Positions 1 through 11,140 of a DNA stretch of 23,282 nucleotides are shown here, piece after piece. The notes below the pieces were generated by a model, which was not told the DNA's origin, made no database searches, and saw only the letters and a list, made by a program, of their open reading frames with translations. This DNA comes from a virus. How positions within the stretch are numbered: the stretch's first letter is position 1; each line of letters opens with the position of its first letter. The DNA lies in IMG/VR virus record IMGVR_UViG_3300030117_007234, positions 2,123-25,404 of that record; one strand, 5' to 3'. Made by a program: the position numbers and the translations under genes.

Positions 1-106
1 CCACCCCTGGCCACCTACCCACCTAACAGCTACCCAGCCCGGCACTGTAACGCAAAAGTGTCCGTTTGACCTTGTATTGTATCGTATTAGGAGTTACTAA
101 TTAATA
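1..106 (+). other. Leader / possible 3' end of an upstream gene
   Basis: No complete gene fits here. Two forward frames are open from the window edge: one ends at a TGA at 67-69, the other at a TAA at 98-100, just before the first gene. Either could be the tail of an upstream gene. The first 45 bases are C-rich with a short imperfect repeat of CCACCTA. AGGAG at 89-93 is the likely ribosome-binding site of the GTG start at 107, with somewhat long spacing. I see no convincing promoter. Confidence 0.3.
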
Positions 107-562
107 GTGACTCATAACGATCCATATGTATCCGAATGGATAAATCTTTGTCGAAGCTGTGGCTTAAAAGATAAACCATTTTATAGCCTGGCGGAGACTA
201 GCCAGCTCGTCGGATGCGCACGGTCCACAGTGAACCGTTGGGTCAAACGGGGCTACCTGGAAGCCAGGCCATGGGGCCCGCGCCGGGTCAAGGTGACGGC
301 TGCGAGTATCCGGCAGCAGCTGAACCTGGACCAACCGGTCGGTGTGGCTGCGCAGTTGACCAACCGGTCGGTGACCTCGGGTTTGACCAACCGGTCGGCT
401 CAGGCGGATTTTACCGACCGGTCGGTCACCCCCCCGATTTTTTCTGGGGATCCGAGCTGGGAGCCTGCTAACCAGCTCAGTGGACGAGAAAAAAATTTGG
501 AAAAAAATTTTGGGGAAAAAAATATAAAAAAAATTCCTGAAATCGGCGAGGACAGTACATGA
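107..562 (+). CDS. HTH DNA-binding protein, candidate replication initiator carrying its own origin
   Basis: A 151-residue protein starting at GTG 107. Residues about 26-72 look like a MerR/excisionase-type winged helix-turn-helix: a SLAE..QLVGCARSTVNRWV pattern followed by a basic RGYLEARPWGPRRVKV wing. A CxxC pair lies at 15-18. From residue 75 the sequence is low complexity: LTNRSV-type repeats, then repeated EKN units. At the DNA level this half holds four iterons and A-tracts (listed separately), so it may exist mainly to house DNA sites. The stop overlaps the next start in an ATGA junction at 559-562. By analogy with lambda O, whose iterons lie inside its own gene, an initiator role is inferred. 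An excisionase-like regulator is the main alternative. The HTH call is fairly firm; the initiator role is not. Confidence 0.65.
   Translation: MTHNDPYVSEWINLCRSCGLKDKPFYSLAETSQLVGCARSTVNRWVKRGYLEARPWGPRRVKVTAASIRQQLNLDQPVGVAAQLTNRSVTSGLTNRSAQADFTDRSVTPPIFSGDPSWEPANQLSGREKNLEKNFGEKNIKKIPEIGEDST
329..426 (+). repeat. Four iterons with ACCGGTCGG core
   Basis: GACCAACCGGTCGG occurs exactly at 329-342, 358-371 and 385-398. A fourth, variant copy, ACCGACCGGTCGGT at 413-426, is a perfect 14-bp palindrome. The nine-base core starts at 334, 363, 390 and 417, spacings of 29, 27 and 27 bases. Because the first spacing is not a multiple of three, copy 1 encodes DQPVG while copies 2 and 3 encode TNRS. 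The DNA is conserved while the reading frame changes, so these are more likely protein-binding sites than a peptide repeat. Confidence 0.8.
454..478. repeat. Inverted repeat between iterons and A-tracts
   Basis: GAGCTGG at 454-460 is matched by its reverse complement CCAGCTC at 472-478 across an 11-base gap, a possible 7-bp stem. It lies between the iterons and the A-tract block in the same gene, so it may be part of the same origin-like element. It is short enough to be chance. Confidence 0.4.
487..536. other. A-tract block, candidate DNA-unwinding element
   Basis: Four runs of 7-8 adenines start at 489, 501, 516 and 526, so they are spaced 10-15 bases apart, close to the helical repeat. 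Such phased A-tracts usually bend DNA, and the whole block is strongly AT-rich in a window of otherwise balanced composition. Lying just downstream of the iterons, it is in the place where a DNA-unwinding element is expected in lambda-type and plasmid origins. It still encodes residues in frame, as repeated EKN. Confidence 0.55.
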
Positions 563-1131
563 CTAAAGATACCGGCATATCCATCGAACTAGCCCAGACA
601 AACAGCCTCGTGCCTTATGCGAGGAATGCCCGGACCCACTCCGATGCGCAGGTGGCGCAAATTGCTGCCAGCATTAAAGAGTTCGGGTGGACCAACCCCA
701 TCCTGATTGACGGGGACAATGGGATTATTGCTGGGCACGGCAGGCTTCTGGCGGCGCAAAAGTTGGGAATGAAAGAAGTCCCAGTCATCCAGCTTGGCGG
801 GTTGTCCGAGGTTAAAAAAAGAGCCTACATCCTTGCTGATAATAGAATTGCCATCAACTCCGGCTGGGACACCGAGATGCTGGGTCTGGAACTGCAAGAC
901 CTGGGCAAAGACATCGACATGACCCTGGCTGGTTTCAGCATGGACGAAATTGACAGCCTTTTAGAGGACGGGTGGTCTTCTGATTTAGAATCCATCGAAG
1001 GTACTGAGGCCAACCTGAACGGCCTGCGGGAAAAAATTGTCCTCAAACTTGACGGGACTTTTGTTGAAGAAGTCACGAACATGATTAGAGCCTATTGCGA
1101 CGAACACGCAATCAACGTGGAGTTCTCGTGA
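559..1131 (+). CDS. ParB-like N-terminal domain protein
   Basis: A 190-residue protein. Residues about 15-80 form the ParB/sulfiredoxin-type domain: LVPYARNARTHS, a helix with IAASIKEFG, then IIAGHGRLLAA at 56-66 with the GHGR signature at 59-62. It continues with KKRAYILADNR and GWD at 88-104, typical of the phage ParB-like proteins that accompany methyltransferases and terminases rather than of true partition ParB. It has no HTH and no partner ParA nearby. The start codon overlaps the preceding stop, and the end overlaps the dpdA start as GTGA, so it is translated with the modification cassette. A role as DNA-binding nuclease or modification accessory is possible but inferred. The family assignment is solid. 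Confidence 0.85.
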   Translation: MTKDTGISIELAQTNSLVPYARNARTHSDAQVAQIAASIKEFGWTNPILIDGDNGIIAGHGRLLAAQKLGMKEVPVIQLGGLSEVKKRAYILADNRIAINSGWDTEMLGLELQDLGKDIDMTLAGFSMDEIDSLLEDGWSSDLESIEGTEANLNGLREKIVLKLDGTFVEEVTNMIRAYCDEHAINVEFS

Positions 1132-1958
1132 CCAAGCTAAACGTCTTGATAGCGTACCCGTACTATGCCGGGCGGTATCAGGAAATTGTTAAGTCTATGG
1201 GGGACTCCATTCGGTTCGTTCTGGACTCGGGGGCTTTTACGTCTTGGAAGTTGGGCAAGGAAATCCGCCTGGACGATTATTGCAAGTTCATCGAAACTTT
1301 ACCGGTTAAACCATGGCGCTATTTTACTTTGGATGTCATCGGCGACCCTGAAGCTACAATGGAAAACTACCAAACCATGCTGCGTCGGGGCTTTAATCCA
1401 ATCCCTGTTTTTACCCGTGGCGAAGACCCGTCGGTTTTAGAGGAATACTACGCGAATAGCGATGTGGTTGGTGTCGGTGGTTTGGTTGGTACTGAAGGCA
1501 ACCGTGGTTTCGTTAAAGGGATCATGGAAAAGATAGGAGAACGAAAGGTTCATTGGCTAGGCTTTACGAACCTGGAATTCGTTAAACACTACAGACCTTA
1601 CATGTGCGACACCAGCGCTTGGGAAAGTGCGGCGCGTTACGGGCAGCTTCGTTTGTATATGGGGCGAGGTAGGTTCAAGACGTTCAACAGAAAAGACTTT
1701 GCCCAAAAACCGGACGAAAGTGTTCTCCGTAGAATTAGCAGCTTGGGGTTAGACCCTTACAAGTTGGCGAAAGAAAAAAATTGGCGGGGTAGTTATTCCA
1801 CTATTCGGGAATTAGCCGCGTACAACTCAGTCGACCTCAGTATGGATGTTGAGAAGAATATAGGCACCAAATATTTTCTGGCTGTTGCTGCCATTTGCGG
1901 CTTCAGTCTTGTCGTTAAGGCATATCGTGATTTTACCAAAGGGAAACCAAATGGCTGA
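1128..1958 (+). CDS. dpdA: DpdA-type DNA-guanine transglycosylase
   Basis: A 276-residue protein related to tRNA-guanine transglycosylase (TGT). Family members replace guanine in DNA with a 7-deazaguanine such as preQ0. TGT-like landmarks are visible: LDSGAF with Asp33, matching the DSGGFQ Asp of TGT; LDVIGDP at 68-74; a GVGGLVG segment at 115-121, like the TGT base-recognition GGL loop; and CDTSAW with Asp161, where the nucleophilic Asp is expected. It is shorter than bacterial TGT, as phage DpdA proteins are. I chose GTG 1128 because GGAG sits 5 bases upstream (1119-1122) and it overlaps the parB-like stop as GTGA. A longer TTG start at 1095 has nothing in its favour. The next four genes make its substrate, which strongly supports the call. 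Confidence 0.85.
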   Translation: MTKLNVLIAYPYYAGRYQEIVKSMGDSIRFVLDSGAFTSWKLGKEIRLDDYCKFIETLPVKPWRYFTLDVIGDPEATMENYQTMLRRGFNPIPVFTRGEDPSVLEEYYANSDVVGVGGLVGTEGNRGFVKGIMEKIGERKVHWLGFTNLEFVKHYRPYMCDTSAWESAARYGQLRLYMGRGRFKTFNRKDFAQKPDESVLRRISSLGLDPYKLAKEKNWRGSYSTIRELAAYNSVDLSMDVEKNIGTKYFLAVAAICGFSLVVKAYRDFTKGKPNG

Positions 1959-2685
1959 AGTAGAGAATGGTAAGTTTGATCCGAGTTGGGAACCTGACGC
2001 ACCAGAAGATGAACCAAACATGGAAGCGGTGGTTATTGTTTCGGGTGGTATGGATTCCGTAACGCTGGCGTATGACCTCAAAAAAGAGGGGTACGACCTG
2101 ACGATGTTGAGTTTTGATTACGGGCAACGCCACAAGGTCGAACTTGAATGCGCGAAATGGCACGCAGACAAGTTAGACGCGGAACACGTAATCATCGACA
2201 TAAGTGGTATCCGTCCCCTGTTGAAAGGGTCGGCGCTCACGGATGATGTGGAAGTTCCCCACGGCCACTACGCTGAAGAAAGCATGCGGGCAACGGTAGT
2301 TCCTAACCGTAACGCTATTATGCTCAGTATTGCGTGGGGTCTGGCGTGTTCCAAAGGAGTCCACGTTTTGGGTTGTGGTGTTCACGCTGGGGATCACTAC
2401 ATTTACCCCGACTGCCGACCGGCTTTTGTGGACGAACTTAACAAAGCGTTGCGCGTTGGAACTGAAGGTCACCGATCAAGGGGGCTTCGACTCTACACGC
2501 CGTACATAGACAAAACCAAAACCGACATTGCTGCTATCGGTGGCGAGTTAGGTGTTCCGTACGAGAAGACCTGGACTTGTTACGAGGGCAAGGATGTTCA
2601 TTGCGGTCAGTGTGGTTCGTGTACTGAACGTAAAGAAGCATTTCGCGACAGTGGTGTTCCAGATCCAACGGCTTATCGGGCATGA
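1951..2685 (+). CDS. queC: 7-cyano-7-deazaguanine (preQ0) synthase QueC
   Basis: A 244-residue enzyme that converts 7-carboxy-7-deazaguanine to preQ0 with ATP and ammonia. The ATP pyrophosphatase P-loop SGGMDS is at 31-36 and the zinc site has Cys210, Cys218, Cys221 and Cys224 in a CxGQCGSC context. FDYGQRH and VVPNRNAIMLSIA are classic QueC motifs. There is no fused glutaminase or amidotransferase domain, so this is plain QueC rather than the Gat-QueC used for archaeosine-type bases. ATG 1951 has AAAGGG about 7 bases upstream and overlaps the dpdA stop by 8 bases. It adds a 23-residue acidic N-terminal extension before the usual start (Met24). That extension contains DPSWEP, also found in the first gene. 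The next gene overlaps as ATGA. Confidence 0.95.
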   Translation: MAEVENGKFDPSWEPDAPEDEPNMEAVVIVSGGMDSVTLAYDLKKEGYDLTMLSFDYGQRHKVELECAKWHADKLDAEHVIIDISGIRPLLKGSALTDDVEVPHGHYAEESMRATVVPNRNAIMLSIAWGLACSKGVHVLGCGVHAGDHYIYPDCRPAFVDELNKALRVGTEGHRSRGLRLYTPYIDKTKTDIAAIGGELGVPYEKTWTCYEGKDVHCGQCGSCTERKEAFRDSGVPDPTAYRA

Positions 2686-3149
2686 AAACTGTGATCGAGT
2701 CCTCGAAGAGTTTTCATAACTTACCATGCGCCCATCGAAGGTACGCCCACGATGGTCACTGTGCTCATGTTCACGGCTACAGTCGAAGCGTAACGTTTTG
2801 GTTTCGTGCTGAAGAAAGAACTGAGAACGGGTTTGTTATGGACTTTGGCCACCTCGCGGAGATCAAGAGTTGGTTAGAGGACCATTTCGATCACACACTT
2901 CTGCTTGATGCGGGCGACCCTCTTCTTCCGGAGTTTAAAGCACTGGAAGAAAAGGGCGCTTGTAAGTTGGTGGTGTACCAAGACGTCGGGATGGAGGGGA
3001 CTTGTGAGTTTATAAAAAGCTACATGGATAAGTGGTTGGAAAAAGAAACAGCGGGGCGTGTTTGGCTGCATTCGGTGGAAGTTCGGGAAAACGACAAGAA
3101 CAGCGCCAGGTTAGTAAGGGAAGATTCTGATGCCGTACACCGTCAGTGA
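2682..3149 (+). CDS. queD: 6-carboxy-5,6,7,8-tetrahydropterin synthase QueD
   Basis: A 155-residue member of the QueD/PTPS fold that turns dihydroneopterin triphosphate into 6-carboxytetrahydropterin, the second step to preQ0. Visible are His18 in PCAHRR, the catalytic-position Cys27, and HCAHVHGYS at 26-34. The family motif is Cys-x3-His-Gly-His; here it reads C27-A-H29-V-H31-G-Y33, so the last zinc histidine is Tyr and His29 may compensate. FVMDFGHL and a FDHTLLL segment match the family core, and VEVREN near the C terminus carries the expected Glu. The start overlaps the queC stop (ATGA) and the end overlaps queE by 20 bases. Context makes the function secure despite the altered metal motif. 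Confidence 0.9.
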   Translation: MKTVIESSKSFHNLPCAHRRYAHDGHCAHVHGYSRSVTFWFRAEERTENGFVMDFGHLAEIKSWLEDHFDHTLLLDAGDPLLPEFKALEEKGACKLVVYQDVGMEGTCEFIKSYMDKWLEKETAGRVWLHSVEVRENDKNSARLVREDSDAVHRQ

Positions 3150-3750
3150 AATGTTTTGCGCCCTTCAGGGCGAAGGTCACCGGGTGGGGTCCCGGAACGT
3201 GTTTGTAAGGTTTGCCGGGTGTAACTTGGCGTGTAACAAACCCGAGCACGGATTCGATTGCGACACAGATTTTAAGTCTGTTTACAAGCGCTATAAAACC
3301 GCTGAAGAGTTGGTGACGGAAATCGAAGAAGTTTGGGGCCCTTCGAAAAAAGGGCGAGCGGTTATTCTTACGGGCGGTGAACCTACTTTGCAGGTGGACC
3401 TTGAATTGACAGTTGCCCTTGGCAACGCTGGTTTTTTTATGGCCATGGAAACCAACGGTATCAACGAGCTTCCCGGCGCTGTTAAAAACAACATTGGTTG
3501 GATTAGTTGTTCGCCAAAAACGGCGGAACACACCCTAAAAATTGGAACGGTTAACGAGCTTCGTTATGTTCGGGCTATTCGGCAAGGAATTCCAAAACCT
3601 AAGCTTAAGGCGAAGCACTTGTTTCTTTCGCCAGCTGCTGACGGGGGCGGGCCTCGCCAAGAAAACTTAAATCACTGCATAGACTTAATAGACCAAAATC
3701 CTGAGTGGCGGCTTTCGGTACAAATGCACAAACTTTGGAGCATCCGATGA
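3130..3750 (+). CDS. queE: 7-carboxy-7-deazaguanine synthase QueE (radical SAM)
   Basis: A 206-residue radical-SAM enzyme that ring-contracts 6-carboxytetrahydropterin to 7-carboxy-7-deazaguanine. It opens with FCALQGEGHRVGSRNVFVRFAG, the QueE substrate segment. The Fe-S cysteines are Cys31, Cys35 and Cys44, spaced CX3CX8C rather than the CX3CX2C of Bacillus-type QueE, and are followed by DTDF. TGGEP at 81-85 is the SAM-binding motif. METNG and ISCSPK follow in the usual order. The start at 3130 has AAGGGA upstream and lies 20 bases inside queD. The stop overlaps the folE start as ATGA. Length is normal for the family. Confidence 0.93.
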   Translation: MPYTVSEMFCALQGEGHRVGSRNVFVRFAGCNLACNKPEHGFDCDTDFKSVYKRYKTAEELVTEIEEVWGPSKKGRAVILTGGEPTLQVDLELTVALGNAGFFMAMETNGINELPGAVKNNIGWISCSPKTAEHTLKIGTVNELRYVRAIRQGIPKPKLKAKHLFLSPAADGGGPRQENLNHCIDLIDQNPEWRLSVQMHKLWSIR

Positions 3751-4367
3751 ATGAAAGTAAGCAAGAAAAAATCGACAGGTGTACGCGAGAAGCCATCGAA
3801 GAAACTAAATACAATGCCGGACTCAAGGCGGTAAAGGATTTGCTTTGGGTCATTGGGGAAGACCCCGGTCGTGAAGGTCTGGTGGATACGCCTAAAAGAT
3901 TCGTCAAGGCATTGGGCGAATGGTTTCGAGGGTACAACGAAGACCCCAAACAAATCCTGGCCACTTCGTTCTCGGAAGTGGGTGGGTACGACGAACTGGT
4001 GATGCTTCGACGTGTCCCGTTCGAAAGCCACTGCGAGCACCACATTACCCCAATCATTGGAACAGCGACAATTGCCTACCTTCCAGATAAGGGCGCAGTG
4101 GGCGTTTCGAAGCTTGCTCGGGTTTTGGATTGTTACGCAAAGCGGTTGCAGGTGCAGGAAAGGTTGACGGCGCAAATAGCTGATGCGTTGGAAGAGTGTA
4201 TAAAACCTCGCGGAGTGGCCGTAATTGTGACCGCAACGCACCAATGTATGACCACAAGGGGGGTCCACAAAGCCCATTCCGACATGATAACCTCAGAAAT
4301 GCGGGGAATGTTTCGTGACAATGCGAGCCTCCGGGCGGAGGTTATGTCGCTACACCTTGGAGGGTAA
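3747..4367 (+). CDS. folE: GTP cyclohydrolase I FolE
   Basis: A 206-residue enzyme that converts GTP to dihydroneopterin triphosphate, the entry step for preQ0 (and folate). The zinc ligands are Cys96 and His99 in SHCEHH and Cys167 in HQCMTTRG, with the same 3- and 68-residue spacing as E. coli FolE. GEDPGREGLVDTPKR at 37-51 and LQVQERLTAQI at 134-144 are family signatures. The start at ATG 3747 overlaps the queE stop (ATGA); a longer reading frame from 3705 would run 46 bases into queE and is less likely. A phage copy would raise precursor flux during infection. With QueD, QueE, QueC and DpdA it completes a GTP-to-modified-DNA pathway. Confidence 0.95.
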   Translation: MNESKQEKIDRCTREAIEETKYNAGLKAVKDLLWVIGEDPGREGLVDTPKRFVKALGEWFRGYNEDPKQILATSFSEVGGYDELVMLRRVPFESHCEHHITPIIGTATIAYLPDKGAVGVSKLARVLDCYAKRLQVQERLTAQIADALEECIKPRGVAVIVTATHQCMTTRGVHKAHSDMITSEMRGMFRDNASLRAEVMSLHLGG

Positions 4368-7010: not shown

Positions 7011-8408
7011 ATGGATGAGAAACTAGGCGGCTATAAAGCCTTAGATGTTTTAGGTGTTACGGGCCTTAATCGCCAAGACGGCATAGTAAACGAAGAATGG
7101 CTTCGACAGTTAGAAGGCACCAAAGGTGTTAAGATCTACGCGGAAATGCGGGATAATGACCCCGTTATTGGCGCAATTCTTTACGCGATTAAAACCCTGG
7201 TAAGACAAACAAGGTCGTCGGTACATCCTTCAGGCACTTCAGAAAAACATCACAGTTATGCCCAGTTTGTTAACGAATGTTTGGCAGACATGTCGGTATG
7301 TTGGCCTGACTTTCTTTCAGAAGTTTTGTCCATGCTTCCGTTTGGGTGGTCGTACTTCGAAACCCTTTACAAGATTAGGGGTGGCCACACCGACAACCCC
7401 AAGACCAATAGCATCTTCAACGATGGTAAAGTGGGTTGGCGAAAGTTCGGCATTCGCGCACAGGACACTTTGGACCATTGGGAATTTTCTGACGAAGGTG
7501 AAATTTTGGGCATGTGGCAGATGGCCCCACCTAACTATAACTTGATTTATCTTCCGATTGAAAAGTGTATTCATTTCAGAACAGAAACCCATAAAAACAA
7601 CCCGGAAGGGCGGTCAATTCTACGAAACGCCTATCGTTCTTGGTTCTTCTGTAAGCGCATTCAGGAAATTGAGGCCATCGGTATAGAAAGGGATCTTGCC
7701 GGTCTTCCTGTAATGCAGGTCCCCCTGGAGCTTTTAGCGAGTAACGCTACGGCGGCGCAGAAAGCGGTGGTCGACGAATGCCGGGATATGATTCAGAAGA
7801 TTCGCCGCGACGAGTATGAAGGGGTAGTAATCCCATCCGAAACGGACATCGACGGCAACCCTAGCGGGTTTAAGCTTAGTCTTTTGAGTTCGGGCGGTCG
7901 AAGGCCGTTGGACGTTAATGAAATTGTGAAACGGTACGAAAGCCGCACCGCGTTATCGGTTCTTGGCGAGTTCGTTCTTTTAGGTATGGACGGCACTGGT
8001 AGTTTTGCCCTGAGTTCCAGCAAGACCGCTCTTTTTGCCCAAGCCCTGGGGACGTATTTACAAAGCATCGCCACAACTTTTAATGAGCAAGCTATTGCTC
8101 CACTTATGCGGCTGAACGGGTTCAAGGACGTGAGCTGCTATCCTAAACTTGTTTTTAGCGACATTGAAACTCCTGACGTTCGTGAGCTTGGGGCCGCACT
8201 GACCGGTCTTGCAGGCGCTGGTTTGATTACACCGGACGACACTTTGGAGAAATGGATTCGTGAATTTGCGAACCTTCCCCCGGTGGACCTTGGTAGTGAA
8301 CGCCCTGCCGAAGAAGAAACTCACGACGACGACCTCTATAACGAAGACACTGACGGGCAGGTGGTTGAAGAAGCGCCAAAGGTAGAAGGTGAGGAGGTGA
8401 TGTCATGA
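7011..8408 (+). CDS. Portal protein (DUF935/Mu gp29-like)
   Basis: A 465-residue protein that would form the ring at the capsid vertex for DNA passage. It has the portal pattern of MRDNDPVIGAILYAIKTLV near residue 45, a central region with FRTETHKNNPEGRSILRNAY typical of portal wing/stem regions, and an acidic C-terminal tail rich in Asp/Glu. Its size matches Mu gp29-like portals. GGAG at 6999-7002 precedes ATG 7011. The stop overlaps the next start in an ATGA junction. Its place among terminase, minor head protein and protease supports the assignment. Confidence 0.85.
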   Translation: MDEKLGGYKALDVLGVTGLNRQDGIVNEEWLRQLEGTKGVKIYAEMRDNDPVIGAILYAIKTLVRQTRSSVHPSGTSEKHHSYAQFVNECLADMSVCWPDFLSEVLSMLPFGWSYFETLYKIRGGHTDNPKTNSIFNDGKVGWRKFGIRAQDTLDHWEFSDEGEILGMWQMAPPNYNLIYLPIEKCIHFRTETHKNNPEGRSILRNAYRSWFFCKRIQEIEAIGIERDLAGLPVMQVPLELLASNATAAQKAVVDECRDMIQKIRRDEYEGVVIPSETDIDGNPSGFKLSLLSSGGRRPLDVNEIVKRYESRTALSVLGEFVLLGMDGTGSFALSSSKTALFAQALGTYLQSIATTFNEQAIAPLMRLNGFKDVSCYPKLVFSDIETPDVRELGAALTGLAGAGLITPDDTLEKWIREFANLPPVDLGSERPAEEETHDDDLYNEDTDGQVVEEAPKVEGEEVMS

Positions 8409-11140
8409 TGAAGGCCAAAGATGACCCAAAGACTCCGGCAAAGCCTAGTGAACGTCGTACGGGTAGCGATAGGAACCCAAGCGGTTCGGCGTCAGGTCAG
8501 CGCGGTGGTATTACGCTATCCGAAGCCAACATTAAAACGCTTGAAAACAAGCGCGACGAGCATAATGAAAAGTATAAGGACACCCCTTCCAAACGGGTTA
8601 CGATGGGGCAGCTTAAGGCCGTGTTTCGTAGGGGCGCTGGCGCGTTTTCTACCTCGCACAGACCTTCAGTAACCAGTCGGGATCAATGGGCTATCGCACG
8701 GGTAAACGCTTTTCTTCATTTGATGGGTACGGGCAAACCTAAGAATTCCAAATATGTGACCGATAACGATTTACTACCGGCGAGCCACCCACGTTCCACC
8801 AAAAAAGAAAAGGCCGAAAAGGCTAAGAGCCTAAAACTAAAACCCCCAGAAAATTACCATTGGATGGACTACCAGGGGGGTCCTGTCCTTATGCCGGGGG
8901 AATACGCGCCTCATGAAGGTGCTGTTGAGTTTTTCGAGTTTGAAATTGTCGAAGAGCACGACGAGTCGCGGTTGAAAAAATACGGTACACCGGACGAAGA
9001 GTTTGCCCGATTCGACCCCCTGAAGAAGGGCGAAGAATGGGACGCGATCTATAACGCAATCCTGGAACGAACTGGGGACAAAGAATTAGCGGCGGCCACT
9101 GCTACAGCCCGTGCCGGTTCCAGGTTCGATAAGAAGAACTACAAGCCCCCGCAATCGGTTGTCCGAGAAGTGAACCAGGGGTTTTCGTGGCAAACCGAAT
9201 ACAAAAGAAGCGATGCCAGCACAAGAATTGGGGCGTTGATTCGACGGGGTAAATCCTTGCCCATCCAAACCGTTAAGGACATGGTCACGTTTTTCGCCGG
9301 ACACGAGAAAGACCTAACCGTTTCGCCAGCGAACCGGGATCCCAGTGCCCCCGGTTACCCTGGCGCCGGGTTAATTGCTTGGAAACTTTACGGGGGTGAC
9401 GCGGGGCGTAAGTGGGCGCAAGGGGTTATTGAAGAATGGCGCGAAGAGACAGAAAAACAACGAAGCTATAGCCCCCCGAAAGGCGTTCAGCGGGAAGCAG
9501 CCTTGGGGTTGAAGTGGCGAAGGGAGCACGGGCGTGGGGGGACCGAAGTGGGTGTGGCGCGGGCGCGTAACCTTTCGAACGGTGACAACATACCTCTCGA
9601 AACCATTAATCGTATGGTCTCATTTTTTGCCCGTCACGAAGTTGATTTGGATGCCCCGAAAAATAAGGACCCTGGGGCAGATGGTTACCCTGGGGCTGGG
9701 TTAATCGCCTGGAAGCTTTGGGGAGGTGACGCAGGTAGGCGTTGGGCTAACACGATTGCCGAGCGCGAAAAAAAGAAGGTCGGTAAAGCCAGCAAGGAAT
9801 ACATGGAAGCAGCCCTAAAGTTGGCAAAAGAAGAGTTGCCGGGGTGGGCTTACGCAAGGATTCATCAAGCGGCCATGGGCAGTGCGGGCGGTAGAAGGCG
9901 AAACGCAAAGGCTGGTGAAAAGTTGGTCGCTAAACTAGCCATGGCCCAAATGTCCGAACCCGTCGTTAAGCAGATGAGTAACGAAGACATTAAGCAGTTG
10001 TTCGACTATCTTAGCGAATGGTTCCAAAACCATAAGCGGGATGTCGATGTGAAGCCTTTAATTGTGGGGGCGGCGGCTTTAGTTATGTCGGAAATGACTC
10101 AGCGCGGCATGAAATGTCCTCCGGGCGATTTGAACAGGGAAGTTGCCCAGCGGCGGGAGGTTGAAAAGGCACAGCTGCGCAAGCTTAATGAAAGCACCAT
10201 TGAGGTACATTCCCCACACAGCCCTATTGTCTTTGTTGTGGAAGAACCAAACTCTATTGATAAGGCACGGGGGGAGTATTTGGTGGGGCAGGACGGTCGA
10301 ATCTTCAAGGATCTGTATTTGAAAAAGCTTGGCTTAAAAAAATCGGATGTTTGTATCGTGGACATCACGCAGCTGGATTGGGTTGAAACAAAGCGCCCAC
10401 GAGAAATTATTGCTTTGGGTCGAGTCGCTAAAAACGCCCTTGGGGACTTGGCTACATGTGTTTTGCCCCACCCTAAAGCGGTGCGGCGGTTTGGGGACAG
10501 TGGTGAAATTAATCGAAAACTCAACGCCCTACTTAAAAGAAGCAACGATTTCTTACTTGACCACAGCTTGCAAAATAGTCCAATCTTAGAGACAAGAGCA
10601 GAAGAGGACAAAAACACAACCGATGAGCTGATTGAAAAGCAGGATTGTGTTGGTCAGGATCTTCCTGGCAAGTCTGAATCGTTAGTCGTGCCGATTTCTA
10701 AGGCGGACTCGGAGAAACAGATAGTCTATGGCATTGTGCTTGATCCATATCAAATCGATAGCCAAGACGATTGGGTGCCTCCAAGAGCAATAGAGGAAAC
10801 TGCCCACAGATGGCTCGCTGAATCGCGGGTGATTGGGCTTGACCATAGCGACAAAGCAAACGCTTTCCCGGTCGAATCATATATGGTTCCCTACCCACCG
10901 GGCGAGTATGATAAGGCTATGGCGAACGAACCTCACAAAGCTTACACCATGCCTTTCGGGGATGACGTGGTACATTCAGGCTCGTGGGTACTTGGGACAA
11001 AACTCGGGGATTCTGAGTGGTCGAAAGTAAAAGAAGGCGAGTTAAACGCCTACAGTATCGGGGGCTACGGCAACCGAACATCGACTACTAAACAAGCGAT
11101 GCCCGCTGTTGAATTCTTGGAACTAAAAGAGGAACGATAA
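8405..11140 (+). CDS. Large multidomain head protein with C-terminal XkdF-like prohead protease
   Basis: A 911-residue protein. In order: residues 33-130, a phage domain with LKAVFRRGAGAFSTSHRP and VTDNDLLPASHP; residues 205-241, a short helical motif with IYNAILERTGDKELAAATA; residues 248-345 and 357-454, two tandem copies of a repeat with PGYPGAGLIAWKL-GGDAGR; residues 462-512, a helical segment; residues 603-712, a uracil-DNA-glycosylase-fold-like segment; residues 758-895, an XkdF-like serine protease with YGIVLDPYQIDSQDDW, GLDHSD (His814), GSWVLGTKL and AYSIGGYG. The protease matures proheads. The rest is far larger than a normal protease (about 200-350 residues) and resembles packaged polyvalent phage proteins. 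ATGA overlaps the portal stop. The protease call is firm, the UDG-like call moderate, and the roles of the other domains unknown. Confidence 0.8.
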   Translation: MMKAKDDPKTPAKPSERRTGSDRNPSGSASGQRGGITLSEANIKTLENKRDEHNEKYKDTPSKRVTMGQLKAVFRRGAGAFSTSHRPSVTSRDQWAIARVNAFLHLMGTGKPKNSKYVTDNDLLPASHPRSTKKEKAEKAKSLKLKPPENYHWMDYQGGPVLMPGEYAPHEGAVEFFEFEIVEEHDESRLKKYGTPDEEFARFDPLKKGEEWDAIYNAILERTGDKELAAATATARAGSRFDKKNYKPPQSVVREVNQGFSWQTEYKRSDASTRIGALIRRGKSLPIQTVKDMVTFFAGHEKDLTVSPANRDPSAPGYPGAGLIAWKLYGGDAGRKWAQGVIEEWREETEKQRSYSPPKGVQREAALGLKWRREHGRGGTEVGVARARNLSNGDNIPLETINRMVSFFARHEVDLDAPKNKDPGADGYPGAGLIAWKLWGGDAGRRWANTIAEREKKKVGKASKEYMEAALKLAKEELPGWAYARIHQAAMGSAGGRRRNAKAGEKLVAKLAMAQMSEPVVKQMSNEDIKQLFDYLSEWFQNHKRDVDVKPLIVGAAALVMSEMTQRGMKCPPGDLNREVAQRREVEKAQLRKLNESTIEVHSPHSPIVFVVEEPNSIDKARGEYLVGQDGRIFKDLYLKKLGLKKSDVCIVDITQLDWVETKRPREIIALGRVAKNALGDLATCVLPHPKAVRRFGDSGEINRKLNALLKRSNDFLLDHSLQNSPILETRAEEDKNTTDELIEKQDCVGQDLPGKSESLVVPISKADSEKQIVYGIVLDPYQIDSQDDWVPPRAIEETAHRWLAESRVIGLDHSDKANAFPVESYMVPYPPGEYDKAMANEPHKAYTMPFGDDVVHSGSWVLGTKLGDSEWSKVKEGELNAYSIGGYGNRTSTTKQAMPAVEFLELKEER
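9146..9766 (+). repeat. Two tandem protein repeats (GDAG module) within the 911-residue protein
   Basis: Copy 1 covers 9146-9439 and copy 2 covers 9473-9766. Both encode about 98 residues ending in the nearly identical GYPGAGLIAWKL(Y/W)GGDAGR(K/R)WA. Shared upstream pattern: PPxxVxREVxxGxxW, a central helix, then (V/I)xxMVxFFAxHExDL. The copies have diverged in DNA sequence, so the duplication is not recent. The second copy, with GRGGTEVGVARARNLS, looks closer to the form I recall from other phage head proteins; the first may be degenerate. Confidence 0.75.
10211..10540 (+). other. UDG-superfamily-like domain inside the head protein
   Basis: Residues 603-712 follow the order of a family 4/5 uracil-DNA glycosylase. 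A hydrophobic strand ends in VEEPN at 612-616, where the family has GExPG. GEYLVGQDGRIFKDL at 623-637 matches the family GRPFVGxAGxLLD. Then LGLKKSDVCIVDITQ (like IGLxRxDVYITNVVK), EIIALGRVAKNALG at 667-680, and LPHP at 687-690, the position of the active-site His. Glu613 and His689 fall where catalytic residues lie. This is pattern recognition only; activity is unproven. Confidence 0.55.

Follow-up and report, generated by a model that had tools for sequence, protein, structure and literature searches.

The origin of replication of bacteriophage lambda lies inside the O gene and consists of four 18-bp inverted-repeat iterons, each of which binds a pair of O molecules, together with a 39-bp region of high AT content (PMC6022878). 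The number of iterons is variable in the O genes of Stx phages (PMC7466680). In phage SPP1, oriL is situated within gene 38 and oriR at another place in the genome; each consists of repeats and an AT-rich DUE, and the same protein binds both (PMC6316719).

The locus described here lies in a 23.3-kb stretch of viral DNA (the window), bases 2123–25404 of a linear and probably incomplete IMG/VR record of 25,404 bp. A 10-N scaffold gap (G000, record positions 2113–2122) ends directly before window position 1. The gene at 107–562 on the + strand encodes a 151-residue HTH_17/excisionase-like winged-helix protein from a GTG start codon. Four dyad iterons (14-bp palindromes, 330–426) followed by an easily unwound AT-rich stretch (486–535) lie inside this gene, downstream of the part that encodes the DNA-binding domain. 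This is the lambda arrangement, and here too the number of iterons varies between relatives; the role of the HTH gene as initiator gene is putative. We estimate a probability of about one half that an origin, iterons plus unwinding element, is embedded in this small gene for a DNA-binding protein. The repeats, the constraint at the DNA level and the minimum in duplex stability are direct observations, as is the recurrence of this arrangement in three relatives.

The original prediction of a lambda O/ori design stands for the layout and fails for the protein. The HTH protein is not of the O type: it has no match to Phage_rep_O, the lambda O N-terminal domain, in Pfam and PHROG searches, and its tail is predicted to be disordered, leaving it without a folded C-terminal or recruitment domain. 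The neighboring gene encodes a ParB-like protein, and no helicase-loader or P-like gene was found next to the HTH gene. Also unlike lambda, the iteron sequence changes between close relatives, and two of these, L020 and L021, carry second, non-coding arrays. A second array is a point of likeness to SPP1, as is a putative initiator gene that contains both repeats and an AT-rich block. Binding of both arrays by the same protein is putative here, and the corresponding upstream region of the window phage is behind the gap. The second arrays of L020 and L021 differ from the SPP1 arrangement in having no clear tandem A-tract block; PHROG and phage-record searches detected no sequence relation to gp38, and no gp39- or gp40-like genes were found. 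The element shares its layout with the origins of lambda and SPP1 but does not belong to the lambda O family. Origins within initiator genes are familiar from lambda and SPP1, but to our knowledge none is known in a one-domain excisionase-like gene with wholesale repeat turnover between close relatives. If this reading is true, the locus would offer a small system for studying initiator-iteron co-evolution and a warning that the "disordered repeat tails" of phage proteins can be disguised DNA elements.

Palindromic repeats within the HTH gene

The HTH gene contains, on the + strand, a near-perfect 14-bp palindrome, ACCRACCGGTCGGT, in four copies. The 16-mers GACCAACCGGTCGGTG start at 329, 358, 385 and 412, which confirms the predicted four iterons with spacings of 29, 27 and 27. 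Copies 1 (330–343) and 2 (359–372) both read ACCAACCGGTCGGT, copy 3 (386–399) reads ACCAACCGGTCGGC and copy 4 (413–426) is the perfect palindrome ACCGACCGGTCGGT, to which the four copies have 1, 1, 2 and 0 mismatches, respectively. The dyad symmetry of each repeat is an addition to the original prediction, which had missed it. Copy 1 is read in a codon phase unlike that of copies 2–4, as had been predicted. No further close copy occurs in the rest of the window or in the 2.1 kb that precede it in the record.

The predicted conservation of the repeats as DNA is well supported. When the same protein was recoded synonymously with the phage's own codon usage, none of 20,000 trials contained four sites and the maximum was three (0 sites in 12778 trials, 1 in 6368, 2 in 828 and 3 in 26). 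Copies 1 and 2 share one 14-mer despite their different phases, and this identity recurred in 3 of 100,000 recodings. The sites are identical at 12–14 of 14 positions and the spacers at only 3–6 of 13, so a fresh tandem duplication is an unlikely source of the window repeats. The same retention of sites between diverged spacers, and the phase change, argue against neutral tandem repeats that arose by chance and expansion alone in a dispensable disordered linker. This explanation is improbable. It draws on the wide variation in the sequence and length of the linker after the HTH domain, which measures 37, 38 and 168 residues and is of unrelated sequence among the window phage, L020 and L021, and on the L021 array, which looks recently expanded in frame with spacings of 39 and 30. 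It does not account for an A-tract block conserved across reading frames or for matching arrays outside genes.

The RNA fold of positions 300–480 is more stable than that of shuffled sequences (z -3.75), which raises the question of whether the repeats act as mRNA hairpins, with copy 2 pairing with copy 4, to control expression. Such folding is expected of any set of near-palindromes, different sequences replace the repeats in the relatives, and the non-coding arrays are outside this gene's transcript. An RNA-level element has very little chance of being the correct explanation.

Relatives and constraint on the DNA

A search with the downstream ParB-like protein retrieved three syntenic IMG/VR phages, L020, L021 and L022, which form the comparison set; these and the window phage are all partial contigs. 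Their TerL proteins are 84%, 82% and 80% identical to that of the window, respectively, and the ParB-like proteins of L020 and L021 are 78% and 77% identical. In each of them, the corresponding position ahead of the same ParB-like gene holds other repeats, the tail motif and the A-tract block. In L021, ACCGATGC(G/T)G occurs 13 times in 39- and 30-bp steps, in most cases with a GACCTACATGTGGGTC-like dyad after it; L020 has two boxes of this type, and the L022 contig begins within CTCGACCGG repeats. The tail motif FSGDPxxxxANQLxGxEKN (coding stretch 440–496, + strand) is common to the window, L020 and L021 and is weaker in L022.

Homologous phages had been proposed as a check on whether the iterons persist with altered coding. 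The iteron sequence itself is not kept in the relatives; it is the A-tract DNA that is kept despite altered coding. A 1-nt length difference shifts the frame in L020 and a TAA is located inside the block, yet GAAAAAAATATAAAAAAAATT is identical to the window. The L021 block has GAAAAAAATT at 4265, 4279 and 4293, 14-bp steps that run through all three codon phases, and the second A-tract of L022 is past the stop codon. This DNA has been kept even though synonymous sites of the HTH domain are close to saturated between the window and the relatives. These frame-independent A-tracts make a stronger case for selection at the nucleic-acid level than does the one phase change on which the original prediction relied. 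Arrays of TGACCTACATG dyads occur in apparently intergenic DNA (L020, 58–151; L021, 1965–2106), where a protein explanation is inapplicable. Together, the sequence comparisons strongly support the view that the repeats and the A-tract block are kept as DNA rather than as protein.

A common motif or half-site, TGACCnAC, in the window and its relatives is suggestive. In 556 kb of other phage loci, no position matches TGACCnACnnGTnGGTCA with one mismatch or fewer. This consensus was, however, built from the sequences under study, and when a matrix was trained on the non-coding sites of L020 and L021 alone, the window sites ranked 3rd and 11th in the record, so the motif is not established. DNA-pattern scans with the A-tract junction and the TGACCTACATG arrays returned only L020 and L021 again. 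Matches to a two-copy ACCGGTCGGT DNA pattern came mostly from collagen-like GPT repeats of GC-rich phages. L018 carries a pair of similar palindromes in non-coding DNA but lacks a related gene. A TerL genome scan for prophages and hosts yielded only 49% relatives.

A-tract block, duplex stability and GC skew

The candidate unwinding element is an A-tract block of tandem GAAAAAAATT-like units at 486–535 that starts 60 bp past copy 4. By nearest-neighbor energies, no other 35-bp or 50-bp stretch of the window is as unstable; in an 80-bp frame it ranks second, after 71–150. The block of L022 is likewise the 50-bp stability minimum of its 18.9-kb contig, and that of L020 ranks second. Several promoter cassettes of L021 are even less stable than the block, which counts against the origin. 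Four A7–A8 tracts had been described as phased; they are present at 489, 501, 516 and 526, and their spacing of 12, 15 and 10 nt gives no helical phasing. The predicted 7-bp inverted repeat, GAGCTGG/CCAGCTC, exists at 454–460 and 472–478, and its left arm is missing from the three relatives. The sequence CTARCCAGCTC occurs twice in the same frame, at 198–208 in the HTH-coding part (TSQL) and at 468–478 in the tail (ANQL), and does likewise in L020 and L021.

Cumulative GC skew, another check that had been proposed, reaches its minimum just after the HTH gene at 4428 in L021 (gene 3491–4315) and at 1059 in L020 (gene 504–926). The origin reading fits this anatomy of palindromic iterons, then the least stable segment, with the skew minima of L020 and L021 alongside. 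It is not proven by it, because both minima coincide with divergent transcription, which also produces skew.

The HTH protein

AlphaFold2 models built from four sequences predict a confident winged helix at residues 8–72, the DNA-binding domain, and disorder from residue 76 onward. The closest solved folds are mycobacteriophage Pukovnik Xis, the nearest, and Streptomyces BldC, with E-values of 0.003 and higher. Pfam and PHROG matches are of the HTH_17/excisionase type only (weak HTH_17, phrog_66/575), with no replisome-organizer family among the PHROG matches. A search of phage records with the whole protein and a single-sequence viral scan found no significant homologue. An N-terminal alignment scan of viral contigs recovered L020 and L021 again plus one distant match, L102; the corresponding genome scan gave no match. 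The HTH genes of L020 and L021 are 70–72% identical to the window gene over 74 residues, with dN/dS of ~0.13–0.21 and synonymous sites near saturation (dS 1.3–1.7). These ratios identify the HTH domain as a real protein under selection. The modeled resemblance to excisionases and BldC, and not to known initiators, weighs against the origin.

The Xis-type winged helix, the Pukovnik Xis match and the phrog_66/575 excisionase matches would suit a gene for an excisionase (recombination directionality factor), accompanied by the sites that it binds and by an attachment site. The sites known for Xis and BldC are arranged as direct repeats. The window sites are dyads and not head-to-tail repeats, and the protein differs from Xis and BldC in its long disordered tail encoded by repeat and A-tract DNA. 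No integrase was seen by ORF reading and family scans, which were not exhaustive, in the incomplete record or in the L020–L022 contigs, and no att site was seen in that record. An excisionase would also leave the A-tract block unexplained, and this reading is very improbable.

Mechanism proposed for the putative origin

The 3′ part of the HTH gene would be a DNA element whose translation yields a disordered protein tail: four palindromic iterons in an array at 330–426, then the A/T-rich unwinding element at 486–535. In the mechanism that we consider most likely, the winged-helix protein would bind the palindromes as pairs. The assembled complex would strain the adjacent A-tract block and open it, and the phage replication machinery would be loaded at the opened block, so that replication would start inside the HTH gene. 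The more distant relative L118 encodes a DUF5906/VapE-type helicase-primase that could serve as such machinery; no replication gene was recovered in the contigs of the window phage.

A bolder proposal, which we think unlikely, is that a single Xis/BldC-type domain is a minimal initiator, and that most of the C-terminal half of this protein is a by-product of translating its own origin. The iteron family would be replaced or expanded between phages with terminases 80–84% identical, and origin identity would switch without replacement of the initiator gene.

Neighboring genes and the L118 locus

The HTH gene heads a DNA-modification operon of ParB-like, DpdA, QueC, QueD, QueE and FolE genes. The ParB-like gene (phrog_620; 559–1131, + strand) directly follows the HTH gene in the window, L020, L021 and L022. 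The main rival to the origin is a set of intragenic operators: the HTH regulator would bind the palindromes in its own gene and control itself and the downstream ParB-like/DpdA/QueC-D-E/FolE operon, with the A-tracts as a UP-like element or a translation enhancer before the ParB-like gene. We regard this as possible though doubtful. The MerR/Xis/BldC-type regulator fold, the position at the head of the operon, and an A-tract block that in each of the four phages stops ~20–35 nt short of the ParB-like start are consistent with it, as are the similar sites of L020 and L021 in intergenic DNA between small early genes. A simple consensus scan of window positions 1–1200 found no sigma-70-like promoter, so such operators would have no evident target. 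Four sites together with a tandem low-stability block are also more than an operator requires, and a translation enhancer has no need for three to four tandem A-tracts.

L118 (TerL 64% identical) bears on both the operators and the origin. Its orthologous HTH and ParB-like genes are divergent from an operon that encodes the DUF5906/VapE-type helicase-primase, an exonuclease and an SNF2-type helicase, which is a point in favor of an origin. The HTH gene encodes 88 residues and has no array, and other palindromes, TCCCATTTTGGGA, are scattered between genes, as would suit a regulator. The skew minimum and repeat-rich DNA are 3–4 kb to the right, near terS. This sequence arrangement, an orthologue without an array and with skew minimum and repeats elsewhere, argues against an origin in the HTH gene. 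The skew minimum of the L118 locus is at 9768. Non-coding, repeat-rich DNA at 8250–9640 contains a 73-bp repeat six times, a 17-bp repeat six times, TCCCATTTTGGGAA palindromes and an A/T block at 9606–9632; it is a possible origin or packaging region of L118.

Two other functions for the window element were considered and dropped. A ParB centromere was abandoned because the ParB-like protein matches the ParB N domain only, and a packaging site is unlikely because the TerS gene is ~3.7 kb away. The partners of the ParB-like gene differ between phages. DpdA-like, QueC, QueD, QueE and FolE genes accompany it in the window (559–4367), L020 and L021. By eye, the partner is a fused adenine-methyltransferase-like domain in L022 (L114, 17592–18572) and a C5-methyltransferase-like gene in L118 (6094–7598).

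Homologous small genes are on the + strand left of the gap in this record and on the − strand in L020 and L021, so the left piece of the record may be wrongly oriented. To the left of the HTH gene, almost all small genes carry near-identical promoter cassettes of their own, each TTGCAT-17-TATAAT-like and containing a TTGCAnnnnnTGCAA dyad, followed by a conserved CCACGGAG ribosome site. The cassettes resemble mobile regulatory cassettes described for other phages and are located at ~355–405, 725–780, 925–975, 1335–1385 and 1715–1770 in L002 and at ~75–165, 390–470, 1320–1400, 1705–1790, 2615–2700, 2995–3065 and 3340–3425 in L111.
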